Shown here: positions 45,323 through 53,881 of the stretch, piece by piece
Layout of the letters: every line of letters begins with the position of its first letter
Numbering within the stretch: position 1 is the first letter of the stretch
NCBI RefSeq assembly: GCF_000143985.1
Contig: NC_014364.1
Coordinates: forward strand, 3,906,001-3,970,000
Source: Sediminispirochaeta smaragdinae DSM 11293
Lineage (GTDB): Bacteria > Spirochaetota > Spirochaetia > DSM-16054 > Sediminispirochaetaceae
Length of the DNA stretch: 64,000 nt
Reading direction: 5' to 3'
Notes under the pieces: model-generated
The model's database searches: none
What the model was told of the DNA's origin: nothing
Seen by the model: the letters and a program-made list of their open reading frames with translations, nothing else
Made by a program: the position numbers and the translations under genes

Positions 45323-46297
45323 ATGCAAAGAGAGATGATCCTCTTTCGGTCCCGTCTCAACAGGGCCGTACGAAATTTTTTCGAATCAAAGGGTTTTCTT
45401 GAAGTTGAAACCCCTCAGCTTTCTCCAACAGTCATTCCCGAAGCCCATATCGAACTCTTCTCCACCCGATTTTTCAGCGACAGGTTCGGAGAACGAGAAC
45501 TCTACCTCCTGCCGAGCCCAGAAATTCACATGAAGCAGCTCATTGCCGAGGGATCGGGAAGTATTTTCCAGATCTGTAAGAGTTTTCGAAATGATGAGCA
45601 GATGAGTCACTACCACAATCCGGAATTTTCCATGCTGGAGTGGTATGCGGTTCAGGGAAGCAGCGAAGAAAATATTGCCACGACCGAAGAGCTTTTTTCC
45701 TGTTTGGCCGAAACACTCCACAGAGACGGTGAATACCTGAGCCCCCCCTTTCGCAGGATGACCATGGCGGAGGCCTTCGACCGTTTTGCCGGTATCGATC
45801 TCGAAAAAGGGCTGAGCCTTCCCGGGCTGAGGAAACAGGCACAAGCCGCAGGCATCGATCTCAGAGACAAACAAGAAAGCTGGGAAGAGCTCTTTCACCG
45901 CATCTTTCTCACGCACGTCGAGCCGGAACTTCCGGCCGACCGTCCCCTCGTCCTGGAACGCTACCCTGCGGCGGTCGAGGTCCTTGCCGAAAGAATTCCG
46001 GGAACCGGCTGGCTCGACCGCTGGGAATTGTACGTCAAGGGGACGGAACTTGCCAACTGTTATGCCGAAGAGCGTTCGCAAAAGCAGGTGGAAAGTTTTT
46101 TTCATAGTCAGTCAGCCCAGAAAGTACAATCGAGCCGTGTGGTGCCGGATATTGATCCGGAGTATCCACAAATTTTCCGAAACTTTCCGAAGTGCAGTGG
46201 GGTGGCCCTGGGAATGGACCGCTTGGCCATGCTTTTTTCAGGAGCAGCCACCATAGAGGGGGTGATGTTGTTTCCGTTTTCTGATATGCTTCGCTAA
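45323..46297 (+). CDS. epmA: EF-P beta-lysine ligase (EpmA/PoxA, lysyl-tRNA synthetase paralogue)
   Basis: This 324-residue protein is a class II aminoacyl-tRNA synthetase core without an anticodon-binding domain. Class motifs are visible: motif 2 ICKSFRNDEQMSHYHNPEFSMLEWY in two parts, and motif 3 SGVALGMDRLAMLF. It activates (R)-beta-lysine and attaches it to a lysine of EF-P. The EF-P gene follows after 61 bases, and an EpmB-like aminomutase is 6 kb away. The ATG has only a weak upstream AGGA. The upstream 130 bases hold the IclR promoter. Confidence 0.93.
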   Translation: MQREMILFRSRLNRAVRNFFESKGFLEVETPQLSPTVIPEAHIELFSTRFFSDRFGERELYLLPSPEIHMKQLIAEGSGSIFQICKSFRNDEQMSHYHNPEFSMLEWYAVQGSSEENIATTEELFSCLAETLHRDGEYLSPPFRRMTMAEAFDRFAGIDLEKGLSLPGLRKQAQAAGIDLRDKQESWEELFHRIFLTHVEPELPADRPLVLERYPAAVEVLAERIPGTGWLDRWELYVKGTELANCYAEERSQKQVESFFHSQSAQKVQSSRVVPDIDPEYPQIFRNFPKCSGVALGMDRLAMLFSGAATIEGVMLFPFSDMLR

Positions 46298-46358: not shown

Positions 46359-46922
46359 ATGATAAAAGCTGGATCGATCGATAAGGGAACCGCACTGCTG
46401 ATTAAGGGGACACCCTATGTCGTTGTCGAGCGGGAATTCGTCAATCCCGGAAAGGGATCGGCCTTTGTACGACTCAAGCTAAAAAGCCCTTCCACAGGGC
46501 AGGTTCTTAGAGAAACCTACAAGACTCAAGATTCGGTGGAGGATATCATTGTTTCCGATAAGGATTGTCAGTATCTCTATGCCGATAATGATTCCTACCA
46601 TTTCATGGATCTGGAGACCTATGATCAGTTCGAAGTACCTATGCAGGGTTTCGAGGATTACAAACTTCTGATGAAGGATGGGGAAACCTACAACATCGTC
46701 TTTTGGGAAGACAAGCCTCTGGATATCAAGATTCCCTTTAAGGTAGTCTACGAAGTAACAGAGGCCCAGGAAGCGGTAAAGGGTGATACCGTCACCGGAG
46801 CAACGAAGATGGTAACTGTTGAGACGGGACTTCAGGTTAAGGTTCCGATTTTTATCAAGCAGGGCGAACGGATCATGATCAATACGGAAACAAAAGAATA
46901 TGTCGAACGGGTCAACCAGTAA
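46359..46922 (+). CDS. efp: Elongation factor P
   Basis: This 187-residue protein has three beta-barrel domains and rescues ribosomes stalled at polyproline. The modified lysine is K32 in NPGKGSAF (equivalent to K34 of E. coli EF-P), which fits modification by the adjacent EpmA. The C-terminal signature is recognisable (TGLQVKVPIFIKQGERIMINT). GAGGTAAAGATAG precedes the ATG. The methyltransferase gene overlaps its last 23 bases. Confidence 0.95.
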   Translation: MIKAGSIDKGTALLIKGTPYVVVEREFVNPGKGSAFVRLKLKSPSTGQVLRETYKTQDSVEDIIVSDKDCQYLYADNDSYHFMDLETYDQFEVPMQGFEDYKLLMKDGETYNIVFWEDKPLDIKIPFKVVYEVTEAQEAVKGDTVTGATKMVTVETGLQVKVPIFIKQGERIMINTETKEYVERVNQ

Positions 46923-48617: not shown

Positions 48618-49728
48618 GATGAAGGTCCAGTTGAGGAAAGGGGATCTCTATTCCCTTGGTTTGACATGCCTTCCAAATTTCCATATTGATCCAGTGATGG
48701 GCGACATATTTATCGTGAACGTCTTTAATCCAGGTAAAGACGGCAAAATTGATACTTGAACTCCCGAACTCCTTCAGCCGCACGGCAGGGGCCTTATCCT
48801 TTCTCCGAAAAGGACAGGAGATTATGGCCGTTTCCAGTATCTCTACCACCCGTTCTACGTCCGAACGATAGGAAACACCAATATCGTTTCGTATTAAAAC
48901 ACTCTTGTCGTCATAGGTATTGTTATAGACGGTATTGGAAACCAGCTGACTATTGGGAACAATAATAGTTTCGTTCATGAGGGTATTAATAACCGTAGAG
49001 ATAATCCGAATCTGAACGACCGACCCCTCGTTTCCCTCTACGATAATGAAATCCCCCTCTTTTATCGGTCTGGTGATGATGATCACAACACCGGCAAAAA
49101 AATTGGCAACTACATTTTGCAGGCCGAAACCAAGACCGAGACCGAGCACACCGAAGATGACGGTCAGGGCCGACAGGTTAATACCGATAACCGAAAGGCC
49201 AATCAGCAAAACGATAAACATGACCGAGTAGCGCAATAGATTTGCAAGAGAGAACTGTTTTGCTTCATCAATACCGATGCGGCGCAGGAAGGATTGATTC
49301 ATCATTCCTTTCGAAATTCTTCCCGCCCAGCTGGCAAGATAGAACACAGGGATCGTAAGGATGATGGTAACAAAGCTGATGCTGGTGTCTCCCGACTTGA
49401 TCAGCGGTTGATTTAGTGCACTGTAGAAAAGTCGCCAGTATTCGAAGAGCTTGGCACCAAAAAGCCTGCTGATAAGGCCGATAATGAGAAAAAGGTAGAT
49501 AAGACGCAAGATCAGACGGTACCAGTGACCAATCTTTTCTTTCATCTCGTCTTGTATTTTCAGTGTGAAAAGAAGTTTCCTTCCGCCGCGCAGCAAGAGG
49601 CGGTAGATAACAAATGCACAGACAAGGGGAAGGACAAAGACGAGCAGAAGGTGCAATGGGGTAAAGGGAAACGATATGGCTCCAAGGGCAAGGGGCTTAT
49701 TGAAAAAAGCGATAAGCAGGTCAGGCAA
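48574..49728 (-). CDS. MscS family mechanosensitive channel
   Basis: A channel of about 384 residues. After several N-terminal membrane segments comes the MscS pore helix region (LTVIFGVLGLGLGFGLQNVVANFFAGVVIIITRPIKEGDFI, in parts), then the cytoplasmic beta and C-terminal domains (VNTLMNETIIVPNSQL, IGVSYRSDVERVVEIL). It opens on membrane tension to release solutes. The frame opens at 49794, but a TTG at 49728 has AAGGAAG six bases upstream and overlaps the stop of the HD-GYP gene by eight bases; I prefer it. ATG 49770 is an alternative. Confidence 0.88.
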   Translation of the reverse strand: MPDLLIAFFNKPLALGAISFPFTPLHLLLVFVLPLVCAFVIYRLLLRGGRKLLFTLKIQDEMKEKIGHWYRLILRLIYLFLIIGLISRLFGAKLFEYWRLFYSALNQPLIKSGDTSISFVTIILTIPVFYLASWAGRISKGMMNQSFLRRIGIDEAKQFSLANLLRYSVMFIVLLIGLSVIGINLSALTVIFGVLGLGLGFGLQNVVANFFAGVVIIITRPIKEGDFIIVEGNEGSVVQIRIISTVINTLMNETIIVPNSQLVSNTVYNNTYDDKSVLIRNDIGVSYRSDVERVVEILETAIISCPFRRKDKAPAVRLKEFGSSSINFAVFTWIKDVHDKYVAHHWINMEIWKACQTKGIEIPFPQLDLHLKDGDNDLPLHRQS

Positions 49729-51562
49729 GATCAACTTCCTTCTGTTTATGTTTTCCTTCAAGGAGATCATACATGGTTTCGGGGTTTTCTTCAAATTCGA
49801 AAAAACGCTTTATACGAGCGAAAACCTGGTGGTTCTCCATAAAGGCATCCACGATCTCCGGATCAAATTGTTTGCCGCGCTCCCCTGCGATAATCTCCAC
49901 GGCCTTTTCGTGGCTATAGGCCTCTTTGTAGGGACGTTTGCTGGTAAGAGCATCGTAGACATCGGCGATGGAAACAATTCTTGCCGAAAGAGGGATACCC
50001 TCCCCACTAAGGCCCTCCGGATAGCCGCTGCCATCCCAGCGTTCATGATGATAGTAGGCAATCTCTTTACCCATGGTGAGAAAACTGGTCTTTGTAAGCT
50101 GTTTATCAACAACCTCCAAAGCCTCGCCTCCAAGCCTGGAATGAGCCTTAATCTGTTCATACTCATCCGGGTTAAAGCGTCCGGGTTTCAGCAGGATGGA
50201 ATCGGAAATTCCCACCTTCCCGACATCGTGAAGAATGGAAGAAAGCGAAAGATCTTCAAGATAGTCGTCGGTTATATAGGCCGCATATTTGGGCAGTCTC
50301 CGAAGGGTTTGGGCCATGATTCTCGTAAATTCGCGAATACGTTCGAGATGAGCACCGGTATCTTTATCTCGGTATTCGGTAAGCTTGGCAAAGCCGATGA
50401 TGGCTGCCGACTGGGTGTCTTTGAGCTCATGAAGGGAATCCCTTAGTTTCTGCTCCAGATGAACACGCTCGGTCAAATCCTTTTCGGCCATGGAATAGGC
50501 GATAACGGTTCCCGTCGAATCTACAATGGAAGTGAAACTTGCATAGGTGTAGATGACCGCTCCATCTTTCCGACGACGTTTCACCTCGCTCTCAACATAA
50601 CTCCCTTCATTATACTGAATCAGGGCAACCAGCTTTGCAAAGGCGTCGTTGCCCCGATCGACCCTAAGCAAATCGTCGTAATGTTGGCCGACCATCTCTT
50701 CCCAATGGTAGCCGTAGGTTCGTTCTGCGGCGGTATTGAGATTAAGAATGGTTCCTTCGGGGTCAAAAATGATGATTCCGGAAAGGATGGTATCAAAGAG
50801 AATGGTAAAATTTCGTTCCGATATCTTGAGCCTGGATTCAAGATTCCGAAGATAGGTGACATCTTTCCATTGAGTGGCATAGCCGGTCACGTTCCCCGAC
50901 TGGTCCTTGATAATCCAGCTGGTATCAAGTACCCGTTTGATTGCACGATTGTTGTTATAGAGGTGAGTCTCCAGATTAAAAACCGTCCCAGCCTCAAGCA
51001 ATCTGCGCTGCTTATCCTCAAGTTCATCCTGGTAAACGTAGACCTCGCGCAAATCGGAAGGTGCATCTTCTTCATGGTACTCAAGAAGCTCGGCAAAAGC
51101 GGGATTTGAGGTTTCGACCCGGCCGTTCATGCGTGCGGTAAACATTGCATCGCCGATCGTTCGAAAGAGTTGCTCATACTCCTGTTCCGCCGCTTGATTG
51201 TTGCTGCCGTCGACCAGTTCCCTCAGGATAATCAAAAAATAAAAGCCGTTGTCCGTGGTAAGGCGTGTACTTTTAACACTGAAACCGCGCGTAGGTTCGT
51301 CGAACCGAAATCCTGTACCCGAAAGGTGAACACTAAAAGAGGTCTCTTCAGGATGTTCCAAACCGATATTCTTAAGAAACGAATGATGCCCCGAAAGAAT
51401 TTCGTCGGCACGAAGGCCAAACATTCTCGAAAAAACATCGTTAAAAAAAAGAAGTTCACTCTTCTCGTCAATGATGAGGATTCCGTCGGAGACTTCTTCA
51501 ATTATGCTCAGCAGTACCGTATCCACTCCAACAGTTATACACCTTCGTGCCTGACGGGTCAA
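49721..51562 (-). CDS. PAS-domain HD-GYP cyclic-di-GMP phosphodiesterase
   Basis: This protein of about 613 residues has three PAS-type sensor regions (IEEVSDGILIIDEKSELLFFNDVFSRMFG; TIGDAMFTARMNGRVETSNPAF; ILFDTILSGIIIFDPEGTILNLN, each visible in part) and a C-terminal HD-GYP domain (HDVGKVGISDSILLKPG, YYHHERWDGSGYPEGL, SIADVYDALTSKRPYKE). HD-GYP enzymes hydrolyse cyclic-di-GMP. It has no membrane segment, so it senses a cytoplasmic signal. The start is uncertain: the first candidate is a TTG, and later GTG codons are possible. It is co-transcribed with the MscS channel. Confidence 0.9.
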   Translation of the reverse strand: MTRQARRCITVGVDTVLLSIIEEVSDGILIIDEKSELLFFNDVFSRMFGLRADEILSGHHSFLKNIGLEHPEETSFSVHLSGTGFRFDEPTRGFSVKSTRLTTDNGFYFLIILRELVDGSNNQAAEQEYEQLFRTIGDAMFTARMNGRVETSNPAFAELLEYHEEDAPSDLREVYVYQDELEDKQRRLLEAGTVFNLETHLYNNNRAIKRVLDTSWIIKDQSGNVTGYATQWKDVTYLRNLESRLKISERNFTILFDTILSGIIIFDPEGTILNLNTAAERTYGYHWEEMVGQHYDDLLRVDRGNDAFAKLVALIQYNEGSYVESEVKRRRKDGAVIYTYASFTSIVDSTGTVIAYSMAEKDLTERVHLEQKLRDSLHELKDTQSAAIIGFAKLTEYRDKDTGAHLERIREFTRIMAQTLRRLPKYAAYITDDYLEDLSLSSILHDVGKVGISDSILLKPGRFNPDEYEQIKAHSRLGGEALEVVDKQLTKTSFLTMGKEIAYYHHERWDGSGYPEGLSGEGIPLSARIVSIADVYDALTSKRPYKEAYSHEKAVEIIAGERGKQFDPEIVDAFMENHQVFARIKRFFEFEENPETMYDLLEGKHKQKEVDLA

Positions 51563-51637
51563 ATAGTTCCGGGAAACGACACGGCAGGGGAAAAGGGCTT
51601 GCCAGATCGATAGCAGCCTGCGAGAATAAAAGAAGCC

Positions 51638-52669
51638 ATGAAGAAAGAAATCGCCTATATCGCAATTGAAATAGAAAACACCACGCTTACCCGCTGTATG
51701 GATTTAAAGGATGGTAAGCAGTCTCATACCCTGCAGTTGACCACGATGGTCGACAATCAGAGGAGAGCACTCGTCACCATCTTTCTGTGCGAAGGGTCCA
51801 CGAAGCAGCTTCTGAAACAGTTTGATTTGACCCATCTTCGGCCGAAGCCGGCAGGCCCCCCCCGCTTCTTTCTCACCTGCCTGTACGACGGCAATAGCCT
51901 GCTCACTATTCGGCTCAAGGTGGACGGGAAAGAGTATGCCGCAGAACGCGTCGACCTAAGCCGATTTATCAGGCGGAAACGACCGATGCTTCTGCTGATT
52001 CCGGTGTTCCTGCTGCTTGCGGCTGCTGCGGTATTGCTTATTCCCCGAACGTGTACATCCCGAAAGAATACGGACCGTACGGTAACGGCATCCGTTTCTG
52101 CAGAAGAAAGCAGACACAGCGAGGAATCCTCTCCGGCGGCAACGGGGAAGATGACGCAAGAAGCTTCAGAGACTATCGAAACACAGCAAAGCCCTGCAAA
52201 ACCATCGCCTCAAGCTTCATCGCCCCCCCCTACTTCGCCCCCGCAGGAGCAGCCTCAGGAGCAAAGAAAGATAGCCGAGCAGGAGCCAACGGCCCCGGTA
52301 ACGGCTTCCGCATTTCGGTCCGTCGAAAAAAGAGCCGTCATTTATTTTCATCCCAACGATTCGGAGCTCACCGCCGAGGCCCAAACCCAGCTCCGCGTCT
52401 TCGGCCGGCAACTCAGGGAGTGGAACAGTATCGATGCCGTGAGTATCGAAGGCCACTGCGCTCTGCTGGGCACCGAAAAGGGGAGGATAGAGCTCTCACG
52501 GGAACGCGCCGAAAACAGTGCCGCTTTTCTCGAAACGATCGGGATCCCCGCGCAAGGAGTTTCCTTGCAATGGTTTGCCGGCGAAAGGCCCGCCACCCGG
52601 GACCCTGACAAACAGGAGCTGAACCGACGGGTTGAAATTTCGGCGAAAGGGAAAGAAGAGCGGCAATAG
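51638..52669 (+). CDS. DnaK substrate-domain-like protein fused through a membrane segment to OmpA domain
   Basis: This 343-residue protein has an unusual order. Residues about 25-105 align by eye with the beta-sandwich substrate domain of DnaK (TTMVDNQRRALVTIFLCEGS, KQFDLTHLRPKPAGPP, TIRLKVDGKE), but no ATPase domain is present. One membrane segment follows (about 115-135, MLLLIPVFLLLAAAAVLLI), then a Ser/Glu/Pro-rich linker to about 225. The last 110 residues are an OmpA-like peptidoglycan-binding domain (IYFHPNDSELTAEAQTQL, SIEGHCALLGTEKGRIELS, LNRRVEI). The Hsp70-like part would face the cytoplasm and the OmpA part the periplasm. It diverges from the HD-GYP gene. Confidence 0.8.
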   Translation: MKKEIAYIAIEIENTTLTRCMDLKDGKQSHTLQLTTMVDNQRRALVTIFLCEGSTKQLLKQFDLTHLRPKPAGPPRFFLTCLYDGNSLLTIRLKVDGKEYAAERVDLSRFIRRKRPMLLLIPVFLLLAAAAVLLIPRTCTSRKNTDRTVTASVSAEESRHSEESSPAATGKMTQEASETIETQQSPAKPSPQASSPPPTSPPQEQPQEQRKIAEQEPTAPVTASAFRSVEKRAVIYFHPNDSELTAEAQTQLRVFGRQLREWNSIDAVSIEGHCALLGTEKGRIELSRERAENSAAFLETIGIPAQGVSLQWFAGERPATRDPDKQELNRRVEISAKGKEERQ

Positions 52670-52676
52670 CCGAAGC

Positions 52677-53771
52677 TTAATCCTCGACGGGATAGGGCCA
52701 GAGTCTATTGTCGGGACCGGGAAGCAATGCCTCTCTCTCCTCCACCCGGGGAACCGGATCAAGGGGAATAGAAACCTTTCCTCCGCCGCCGGGTAGGTCA
52801 ACGGCATAGACCGGTGTGGCGAGCCCCGACATGCACTGCCGCAATGAGCGCATAATCGACACGCCTTTGAGGATCGGGGCCCGGAGATGCGATGTGCCGG
52901 CCGCAAGGTCCCCCTGAAACAGGTAGTAGGGAATAACCCTGGCGGCGAGCAACGCCCCGCTCAGGACCTTCAGGGTCTCACGGTCATCATTCACCCCACG
53001 CAGCAAAACCGACTGATTGAGAATCGGGATTCCTGAATCCGCAAGCCGCGCAAGGGCCTCGACAGCCGGAGGAGAGACTTCATCGGGATGGTTGAACTGG
53101 CACACGACGAAAAGCGGTGCCCTGCGACCAAGCTCCCGGGCCAATACAGGCGTTATCCGTGAGGGAAGCACCGCCGGCATCCTCGTACCGATACGAAGAA
53201 TGAGATCGGGCCTGTGCTTACGAAAAAGATCGATAAGCCGAAAAAGGGTACCATCGGGAAGCATCAGGGGATCACCACCGGAGAGAAGGAGTTCCCTGAT
53301 CTCCGGCCGTTTTTCAAGATAACAGGCGGCATCCTGGGCCGCCTCAAAAAGCGAACGCCGGTCCTTTCGATTCTTTACCTCACGGTCTCCCTGACCAGCG
53401 CCACCGGTAAAATGGCGACGAAAGCAGTGTCGACAATAGAGGGCACAGCGATCGGAGGCCAAAAAAAGGGCCCTGTCTTCGTAGCGATGAATCAAACGGG
53501 GAAGCGGGCTATACTCCTGTTCACAAAGGGGATCGGCAGACTCATAGGAAAGAAAGTGGAACTCCTCTTTCCTGGGAATGGCCTGCCGACGCAGGGGCGA
53601 TGCCGGATCATCGCCCATAAGGGACAGATAGTGTCGTGTCAGGGCAAAGGGAAGGCGCCGCTCCTCTTCGGAGTCAAACCAGGCCCGTTCCTCATCCTCA
53701 AGACAAAGATGCCTCTCCAGCTCATCCAGATTCGTTACCCGCTCTTTTAGTTCCCGTTGCCAGCTCTCCAT
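52677..53771 (-). CDS. epmB: EpmB/KamA-type lysine 2,3-aminomutase
   Basis: A radical-SAM enzyme of about 364 residues. The cluster motif is CALYCRHCFRR (CxxxCxxC), followed by ELLLSGGDPLMLPDG, RIGTRMPAVLPSRIT and SVLLRGVNDDRETL; the PLP lysine region lies near the C-terminus. It converts lysine to beta-lysine with SAM and PLP. With epmA and efp in the same window it most likely supplies beta-lysine for EF-P, although some KamA enzymes serve osmolyte synthesis. The frame opens at 53801; I prefer the ATG at 53771, which has AAAGGG just upstream. It converges on the OmpA-domain gene. Confidence 0.85.
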   Translation of the reverse strand: MESWQRELKERVTNLDELERHLCLEDEERAWFDSEEERRLPFALTRHYLSLMGDDPASPLRRQAIPRKEEFHFLSYESADPLCEQEYSPLPRLIHRYEDRALFLASDRCALYCRHCFRRHFTGGAGQGDREVKNRKDRRSLFEAAQDAACYLEKRPEIRELLLSGGDPLMLPDGTLFRLIDLFRKHRPDLILRIGTRMPAVLPSRITPVLARELGRRAPLFVVCQFNHPDEVSPPAVEALARLADSGIPILNQSVLLRGVNDDRETLKVLSGALLAARVIPYYLFQGDLAAGTSHLRAPILKGVSIMRSLRQCMSGLATPVYAVDLPGGGGKVSIPLDPVPRVEEREALLPGPDNRLWPYPVED

Positions 53772-53881
53772 GTTCCCTTTGTACCATGGAACTGTCCTCA
53801 TCGGGAAGTGATTGACGCAAGGAGGAGGGCAGACTAAGCTCTAAGCCATTCCATAATACACCCAAAAGGCAAGGAGCGATG

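Follow-up and report, generated by a model that had tools for sequence, protein, structure and literature searches.

Can the peptide clamp of an Hsp70 chaperone be fixed to the bacterial cell wall, and what would such a protein do? This question is raised by a gene of Sediminispirochaeta smaragdinae DSM 11293 that lies in the 64,000 nucleotides analysed here (NC_014364.1, positions 3,906,001 to 3,970,000; the window). Hsp70 substrate-binding domains (SBDs) are usually viewed as ATP-driven soluble clamps. The original prediction for this gene placed a DnaK-like beta-sandwich without ATPase, a membrane crossing and a terminal OmpA domain in a single protein, and an open reading frame with these parts in this order is indeed present (Table 1).

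Table 1. Positions of the window gene, its parts and neighbours, and of the LysM-type locus in the same genome
Feature	Position	Strand	Remarks
Whole CDS, 343 aa	51638..52669	+	Hsp70 SBDbeta, TM, disordered linker, OmpA
Hsp70 SBDbeta, residues 5-115	51650..51982	+	without lid, without ATPase; phmmer, profile, AlphaFold, fold matches
One wall of the peptide cleft, residues 34-46 (LTTMVDNQRRALV)	51737..51775	+	DnaK F426-I438; DnaK cleft residues from PMC4408060
Single transmembrane (TM) helix, residues 117-135	51986..52042	+	RRKR just before
Linker, residues 136-225	52043..52312	+	low-complexity, S/T/E/P/Q-rich, disordered, PPP present
OmpA-like domain, residues 226-341	52313..52660	+	GHCA replaces GHTD, LSRERA Arg retained
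Promoter-like pair TTGCCA - 17 nt - GAGAAT	51599..51627	+	ends 10 nt 5' of ATG
EpmA-like gene and EF-P gene, one side of window gene	45323-46297, 46359-46922		partly conserved neighbourhood
KamA/EpmB-like gene, other side of window gene	52677-53801		partly conserved neighbourhood
Divergent PAS-HD-GYP protein, neighbour of window gene	49721-51562	-	
SBD-TM-LysM copy of S. smaragdinae	L067:6159-7160	-	near 4.128 Mb
Divergent TPR neighbour of the LysM-type gene	L067:7022-8533	+	N-terminal membrane segment, TPR repeats, C-terminal Mrr-type nuclease-like domain

Domain architecture of the window protein

The architecture SBDbeta, TM helix and OmpA domain is near certain. One TM helix is predicted (residues 117-134/135), in agreement with the proposed membrane crossing, and the OmpA domain assigned to the end of the chain matches PF00691 over residues 236-328 with 51 bits, the cut-off being 27.2. 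In the full-length AlphaFold model the SBD is followed by a helix at 117-134, by a linker whose pLDDT is <50 across most of 139-222, and by the OmpA domain, which is modelled at pLDDT ~93.

Homology of the N-terminal domain to Hsp70

As a single sequence, the N-terminal region gives weak matches below threshold to Pfam HSP70 (E 0.24) and TIGR02350 DnaK (E 0.12). Hsp70 SBDs nevertheless rank first in a phmmer search of the PDB, with the Hsc70 SBD matching residues 28-93 at E 1.5e-4, and the E-value for this Hsc70 domain falls to 1.6e-5 when 17 relatives are combined in a profile. Profile-profile comparison with a spirochaete DnaK SBD gives E 4.5e-7 and a probability of 92.6%, with 87 columns in register. 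A bridge is formed by a second family, the LysM type described below: in profile comparisons the OmpA-type SBD matches the LysM-type SBD at E 3.5e-15, and the latter matches DnaK at E 1.5e-16. The AlphaFold model built from the OmpA-type family alone is eight-stranded (pLDDT 82.9, pTM 0.74). The top 50 PDB matches are all Hsp70 SBDs both in Foldseek (E from 1.6e-4, TM up to 0.74) and in VIA-align (best Z 12.1, 2.9 A, 111 residues), and VIA-align superposes model residues 5-115 on DnaK 396-510.

The predicted fold could have contradicted the claim of a DnaK beta-sandwich at the N-terminus; together with the profile match it upholds that claim. From the motif list of the original prediction the SBD match stands, while the final motif, K.DGKE, is weak and lies past the end of the confident profile alignment (residue 94), the structural alignment running on beyond this region to residue 115. 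That an unrelated beta-sandwich resembles DnaK by chance, as the sub-threshold Pfam and NCBIfam matches of the single sequence might suggest, has a vanishingly small probability and was ruled out by the profile match, the fold and the bridging family, whose SBD exceeds the Pfam HSP70 cut-off.

The domain shares with DnaK SBDbeta (PF00012, ~391-510) an eight-stranded beta-sandwich of the same strand order. Since the first residues of the protein correspond to DnaK ~391-396 and the HSP70/DnaK profiles match the SBD part only, the ATPase domain is absent as had been claimed. The helical lid (SBDalpha) is also absent, the TM helix at 117 coming straight after the beta-sandwich. In contrast to Hsp70/DnaK, the protein has no nucleotide-binding domain, DVTPLSL linker or helical lid, while it possesses an acidic M404 position, Ala at V436 and a membrane anchor. 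Because ATPase and lid are missing, it is a carrier of an Hsp70 SBDbeta and not an Hsp70.

Conservation of the peptide cleft

Cleft positions were mapped in DnaK numbering on 31 OmpA-type sequences, with the cavity residues taken from PMC4408060. Far from being absent throughout the family, they are the best-conserved part of the OmpA-type domain. Q433 is found in 31/31 sequences, T428 in 28/31 and Ile or Val at I438 in 29/31, while S427 is replaced by Thr (30/31; likewise in human Hsp70), V436 by Ala (28/31) and F426 by Leu (27/31), so that Q433, T428, S/T427, F/L426 and I438 are features shared with DnaK. Q41 of the window protein corresponds to Q433, which is invariant in all three groups compared, and A44 stands at the V436 position, with a wider pocket. 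Mean information amounts to 2.42 bits at the 30 cavity positions versus 1.73 bits at the 72 others, a difference reached in 0/5000 permutations; because several of the cavity positions lie in the hydrophobic core as well, which this statistic may partly reflect, it supports peptide binding without proving it. Judged from cleft conservation, the SBDbeta would bind peptides.

Two further positions differ from DnaK. The arch position M404 is not conserved, with E/D/N in 25/31 OmpA-type sequences (E13 here) and Ala in most LysM-type members, and the A429 position is Ile, Leu or Val in the OmpA type. We know of no precedent in DnaK for an acidic residue at M404, at the top of the cleft.

Membrane topology and the OmpA domain

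Lys and Arg are commoner before than after the TM segment in 24/30 OmpA-type and 9/14 LysM-type members, and rarer in 2/30 and 2/14, respectively. This charge bias predicts a cytoplasmic location for the SBD and a periplasmic one for the OmpA domain. Such an N-in single pass with a periplasmic OmpA-like domain at the end is shared with MotB and other OmpA-anchored inner-membrane proteins, but the window protein has a large cytoplasmic SBDbeta and the MotB Asp was not found in its TM segment (MLLLIPVFLLLAAAAVLLI). A MotA-like gene is not among the conserved neighbours of OmpA-type loci.

Going by its domain family, the OmpA domain likely binds peptidoglycan. The DAP-site motif TD(x)7NxxLSxxRA is present in part: Arg290 and LS are kept, and the Asp has become Ala275 in 17/17 sequences. 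Spirochaete homologues of Tp0624 carry the same replacement, which was linked to L-ornithine peptidoglycan, and ornithine is used instead of DAP in most spirochaetes (Parker et al., PMC5104382). Tp0624 itself differs from the window protein in having other N-terminal domains and no SBD. GHTA or GHCA, versus GHTD elsewhere, was seen in every spirochaete OmpA domain inspected (including L002, L003, L004 and L024-L036). The loss of the DAP-binding Asp across spirochaete OmpA domains would match their ornithine peptidoglycan.

Distribution, neighbourhood and gene start of the OmpA type

Full-length relatives of the same architecture are present in 16 further spirochaete genomes, with more on wider search, and their SBDs are mostly 21-34% identical to that of the window protein. 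A scan of named genomes used a closer subset as query, the alignment of all 17 members being too diverse. It returned relatives of the N-terminal part from spirochaetes only, among them Sediminispirochaeta sp., Alkalispirochaeta alkalica and Candidatus Marispirochaeta, while other phyla matched the OmpA part only.

The OmpA-type neighbourhood comprises EF-P, EpmA, Rrf2, MscS, PAS-HD-GYP and KamA genes, with a PAS-HD-GYP-containing cluster in 7/19 loci. The divergent PAS-HD-GYP neighbour is a possible regulatory partner of the window protein. None of these genes names a client, and no J-domain, GrpE, Sec or chaperone genes were seen among the conserved neighbours. PPP stretches occur in 13/29 OmpA-type versus 1/14 LysM-type proteins, and through them the OmpA-type proteins are possibly EF-P dependent.

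A TANNNT -10 hexamer lies <=17 nt before the start codon in 22/30 OmpA-type genes (background 8% per search window), usually at a distance of 6-7 nt, with TTGAC 16-17 nt further 5'; in most relatives a -10 hexamer stands 5-8 nt from the start codon. A Shine-Dalgarno-like site was found in 1/30. Examples of relatives with the hexamer near the start are L011, L013, L022 and L161. The LysM-type genes show the reverse, with the near-start TANNNT in 0/17 and a Shine-Dalgarno-like site in 15/17. Since most relatives have near-start -10 hexamers, the OmpA-type mRNAs, including that of the window gene, are predicted to be leaderless.

A LysM-anchored sister family

The profile also found a second, wider spirochaete family whose SBDbeta is closer to the canonical form and is followed by an acidic linker, a TM segment and a C-terminal LysM domain; Pfam shows these proteins only as an HSP70 part plus LysM. 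In the copy of S. smaragdinae both domains are above the Pfam cut-off (HSP70 36.5 bits, LysM 36.9 bits). SBD-TM-LysM proteins occur in many Spirochaetia genomes, with a length of 318 aa in a Treponema pallidum-like genome, and two Borrelia-like genomes have an SBD-TM form without LysM. When OmpA-type genomes were searched again with the profile of the LysM type, every one (13/13) was found to contain the LysM type or its SBD-TM form as well.

Both types share an N-terminal SBDbeta, a positive-flanked TM segment and a periplasmic wall-binding module. The LysM-type proteins differ from the window protein, which lacks a C-terminal LysM and has OmpA instead, also by a longer acidic cytoplasmic linker, a Shine-Dalgarno start and a lytic transglycosylase cluster. 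In the Treponema-like L098 and L097 the linker between SBD and TM reaches 500-600 acidic residues, which brings the whole proteins to 810-869 aa. LysM is absent from L150, L151, L196, L201 and L202, which retain SBD and TM; such LysM-less proteins point to the cytoplasmic SBD as the essential part.

In a tree of the SBDs the OmpA type forms one separate clade (support 100/92). L029 and L216 have an OmpA domain behind the TM segment, but their SBD is on the LysM/DnaK side (for L029 in the SBD tree), and SBD and wall module were therefore probably joined, or joined anew, on more than one occasion.

Lytic transglycosylase and flagellar context

An SLT lytic transglycosylase gene accompanies the LysM type in 14/20 loci, and the TPR gene with its Mrr-type domain is kept in 11/20, also in Borrelia-like genomes; UppP follows the cluster in several loci. 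The order TPR, SBD-TM, SLT, UppP is retained in Borrelia-like loci, where gene order, size, lipobox and SLT domain make the SLT protein an apparent counterpart of BB0259. Flagellar assembly needs the peptidoglycan hydrolysis by BB0259, which lets the hook through the wall (PMC8517470). The SBD-LysM gene of the T. pallidum-like genome lies near 49.5 kb, upstream of SLT and gidA genes. A link to TP0048, which a T. pallidum interactome study tied to motility (PMC2386257), was ruled out, since TP0048 is the bactofilin CcmA (PMC5015957).

The SBD-TM gene is present in 13/19 genomes with a full FliG match and in 0/8 without any, but Fisher's p of 0.002 ignores kinship and 5/8 of the FliG-less genomes are from one family. 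Strict co-occurrence with flagella was dropped, as two genomes with a partial FliG-like match only have the gene, and FliG-bearing Brachyspira-like and Leptospira-like genomes are without it. For the LysM-type gene, the link to flagella is thus loose. The window protein's own locus is not flagellar, and because the OmpA-type neighbourhood differs from that of the LysM type, ascribing such a role to the window protein would be an extrapolation. The flagellar clients suggested in the original prediction accordingly gain indirect support for the LysM-anchored sister, through its cluster with the transglycosylase gene, but not for the locus of the window protein.

Discussion

Our preferred reading, in which our confidence is just above even, is that the window protein acts as an ATP-independent, passive peptide-recognising tether that connects a cytoplasmic partner to the wall. 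We infer this role, and a client for it, from computed features, namely the domain order, the fold and homology of the SBDbeta, the lack of ATPase and lid, the conserved cleft and the two anchor types. The protein would pass the inner membrane once and keep an Hsp70-type peptide clamp attached to the cell wall. Its cytoplasmic SBDbeta would hold on to a cytoplasmic protein by a tail or an extended segment, using neither ATP nor a lid. The TM helix would take the chain through the inner membrane, the flexible linker would span the periplasm, and the OmpA domain would dock onto ornithine-type peptidoglycan. In this way a cytoplasmic client or partner may be concentrated at a wall-attached site. 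The LysM sister may have the same role via its other wall-binding module, probably at flagellar or wall-remodelling sites. In favour of a tether, an SBD recurs with a wall-binding module in the same phylum (OmpA, LysM, L029/L216). Against it, a peptide bound by a lidless clamp would exchange fast, and the acidic M404 position, the Ala in place of the DAP-site Asp and a neighbourhood without a named client also count against it.

The SBDbeta could instead serve as a plain protein-protein interface that holds one folded partner, such as a filament, array or elongation protein, via another surface, making the protein a structural linker between wall and cytoplasm. The missing ATPase and lid would fit, as would the changes at M404, A429 and V436 in most members, and Hsp70-type domains are found in axonemal proteins (FAP363 is among the PDB matches). 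However, the positions with top conservation are the DnaK peptide contacts Q433, S427, V436, T428 and F426, and contact positions are kept in both types despite the low identity within the OmpA type. We regard this explanation as unlikely, though it deserves serious consideration.

Both of the remaining explanations appear improbable to us. As a transmembrane sensor, the protein would let cytoplasmic peptide or unfolded load alter the engagement of OmpA with the wall, or let the state of the wall alter client binding. A single TM between two ligand-binding domains and the divergent PAS-HD-GYP signalling neighbour are compatible with such a function, but the post-TM linker of ~85 residues with pLDDT <50 would be a poor conductor of conformational signals, and no HAMP, coiled coil or output domain was seen. 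An envelope-tethered holdase that passes unfolded or secretory proteins to DnaK or the Sec machinery, to which we assign a similarly low probability, would make use of the conserved cleft, and clients could be passed on to the two DnaK-like proteins of the genome or to its third Hsp70; yet the conserved neighbours include no gene of such a pathway, and the grip of an SBD that has neither lid nor ATP would be weak.

Beyond the tether proposed for the window protein, we put forward more tentatively, as a possibility that we consider less than likely, a dedicated class of ATP-independent Hsp70-type clamps in many spirochaetes, connected across the inner membrane to peptidoglycan, in which OmpA and LysM wall modules are interchangeable, and whose LysM members, together with the flagellar lytic transglycosylase, position the assembly of periplasmic flagella or the opening of the wall.

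Each single domain of these proteins is known. In the literature searched, where coverage of subscription papers was limited, we found no description of an SBD with LysM or OmpA, nor any account of such a combination recurring with two anchors or of how broadly it occurs in spirochaetes. Related proteins extend through a large part of the Treponema-like spirochaetes, the syphilis agent among them, and members in Treponema- and Borrelia-like genomes are apparently undescribed. With a clamp that has lost motor and lid and is anchored across the membrane in the wall, a universal domain would have been put to a new purpose, and cytoplasmic proteins would be physically linked to peptidoglycan. Since the LysM type lies beside a relative of a flagellum-related lytic transglycosylase that opens the wall, it would offer an entry into the coordination of wall and flagella in spirochaetes.
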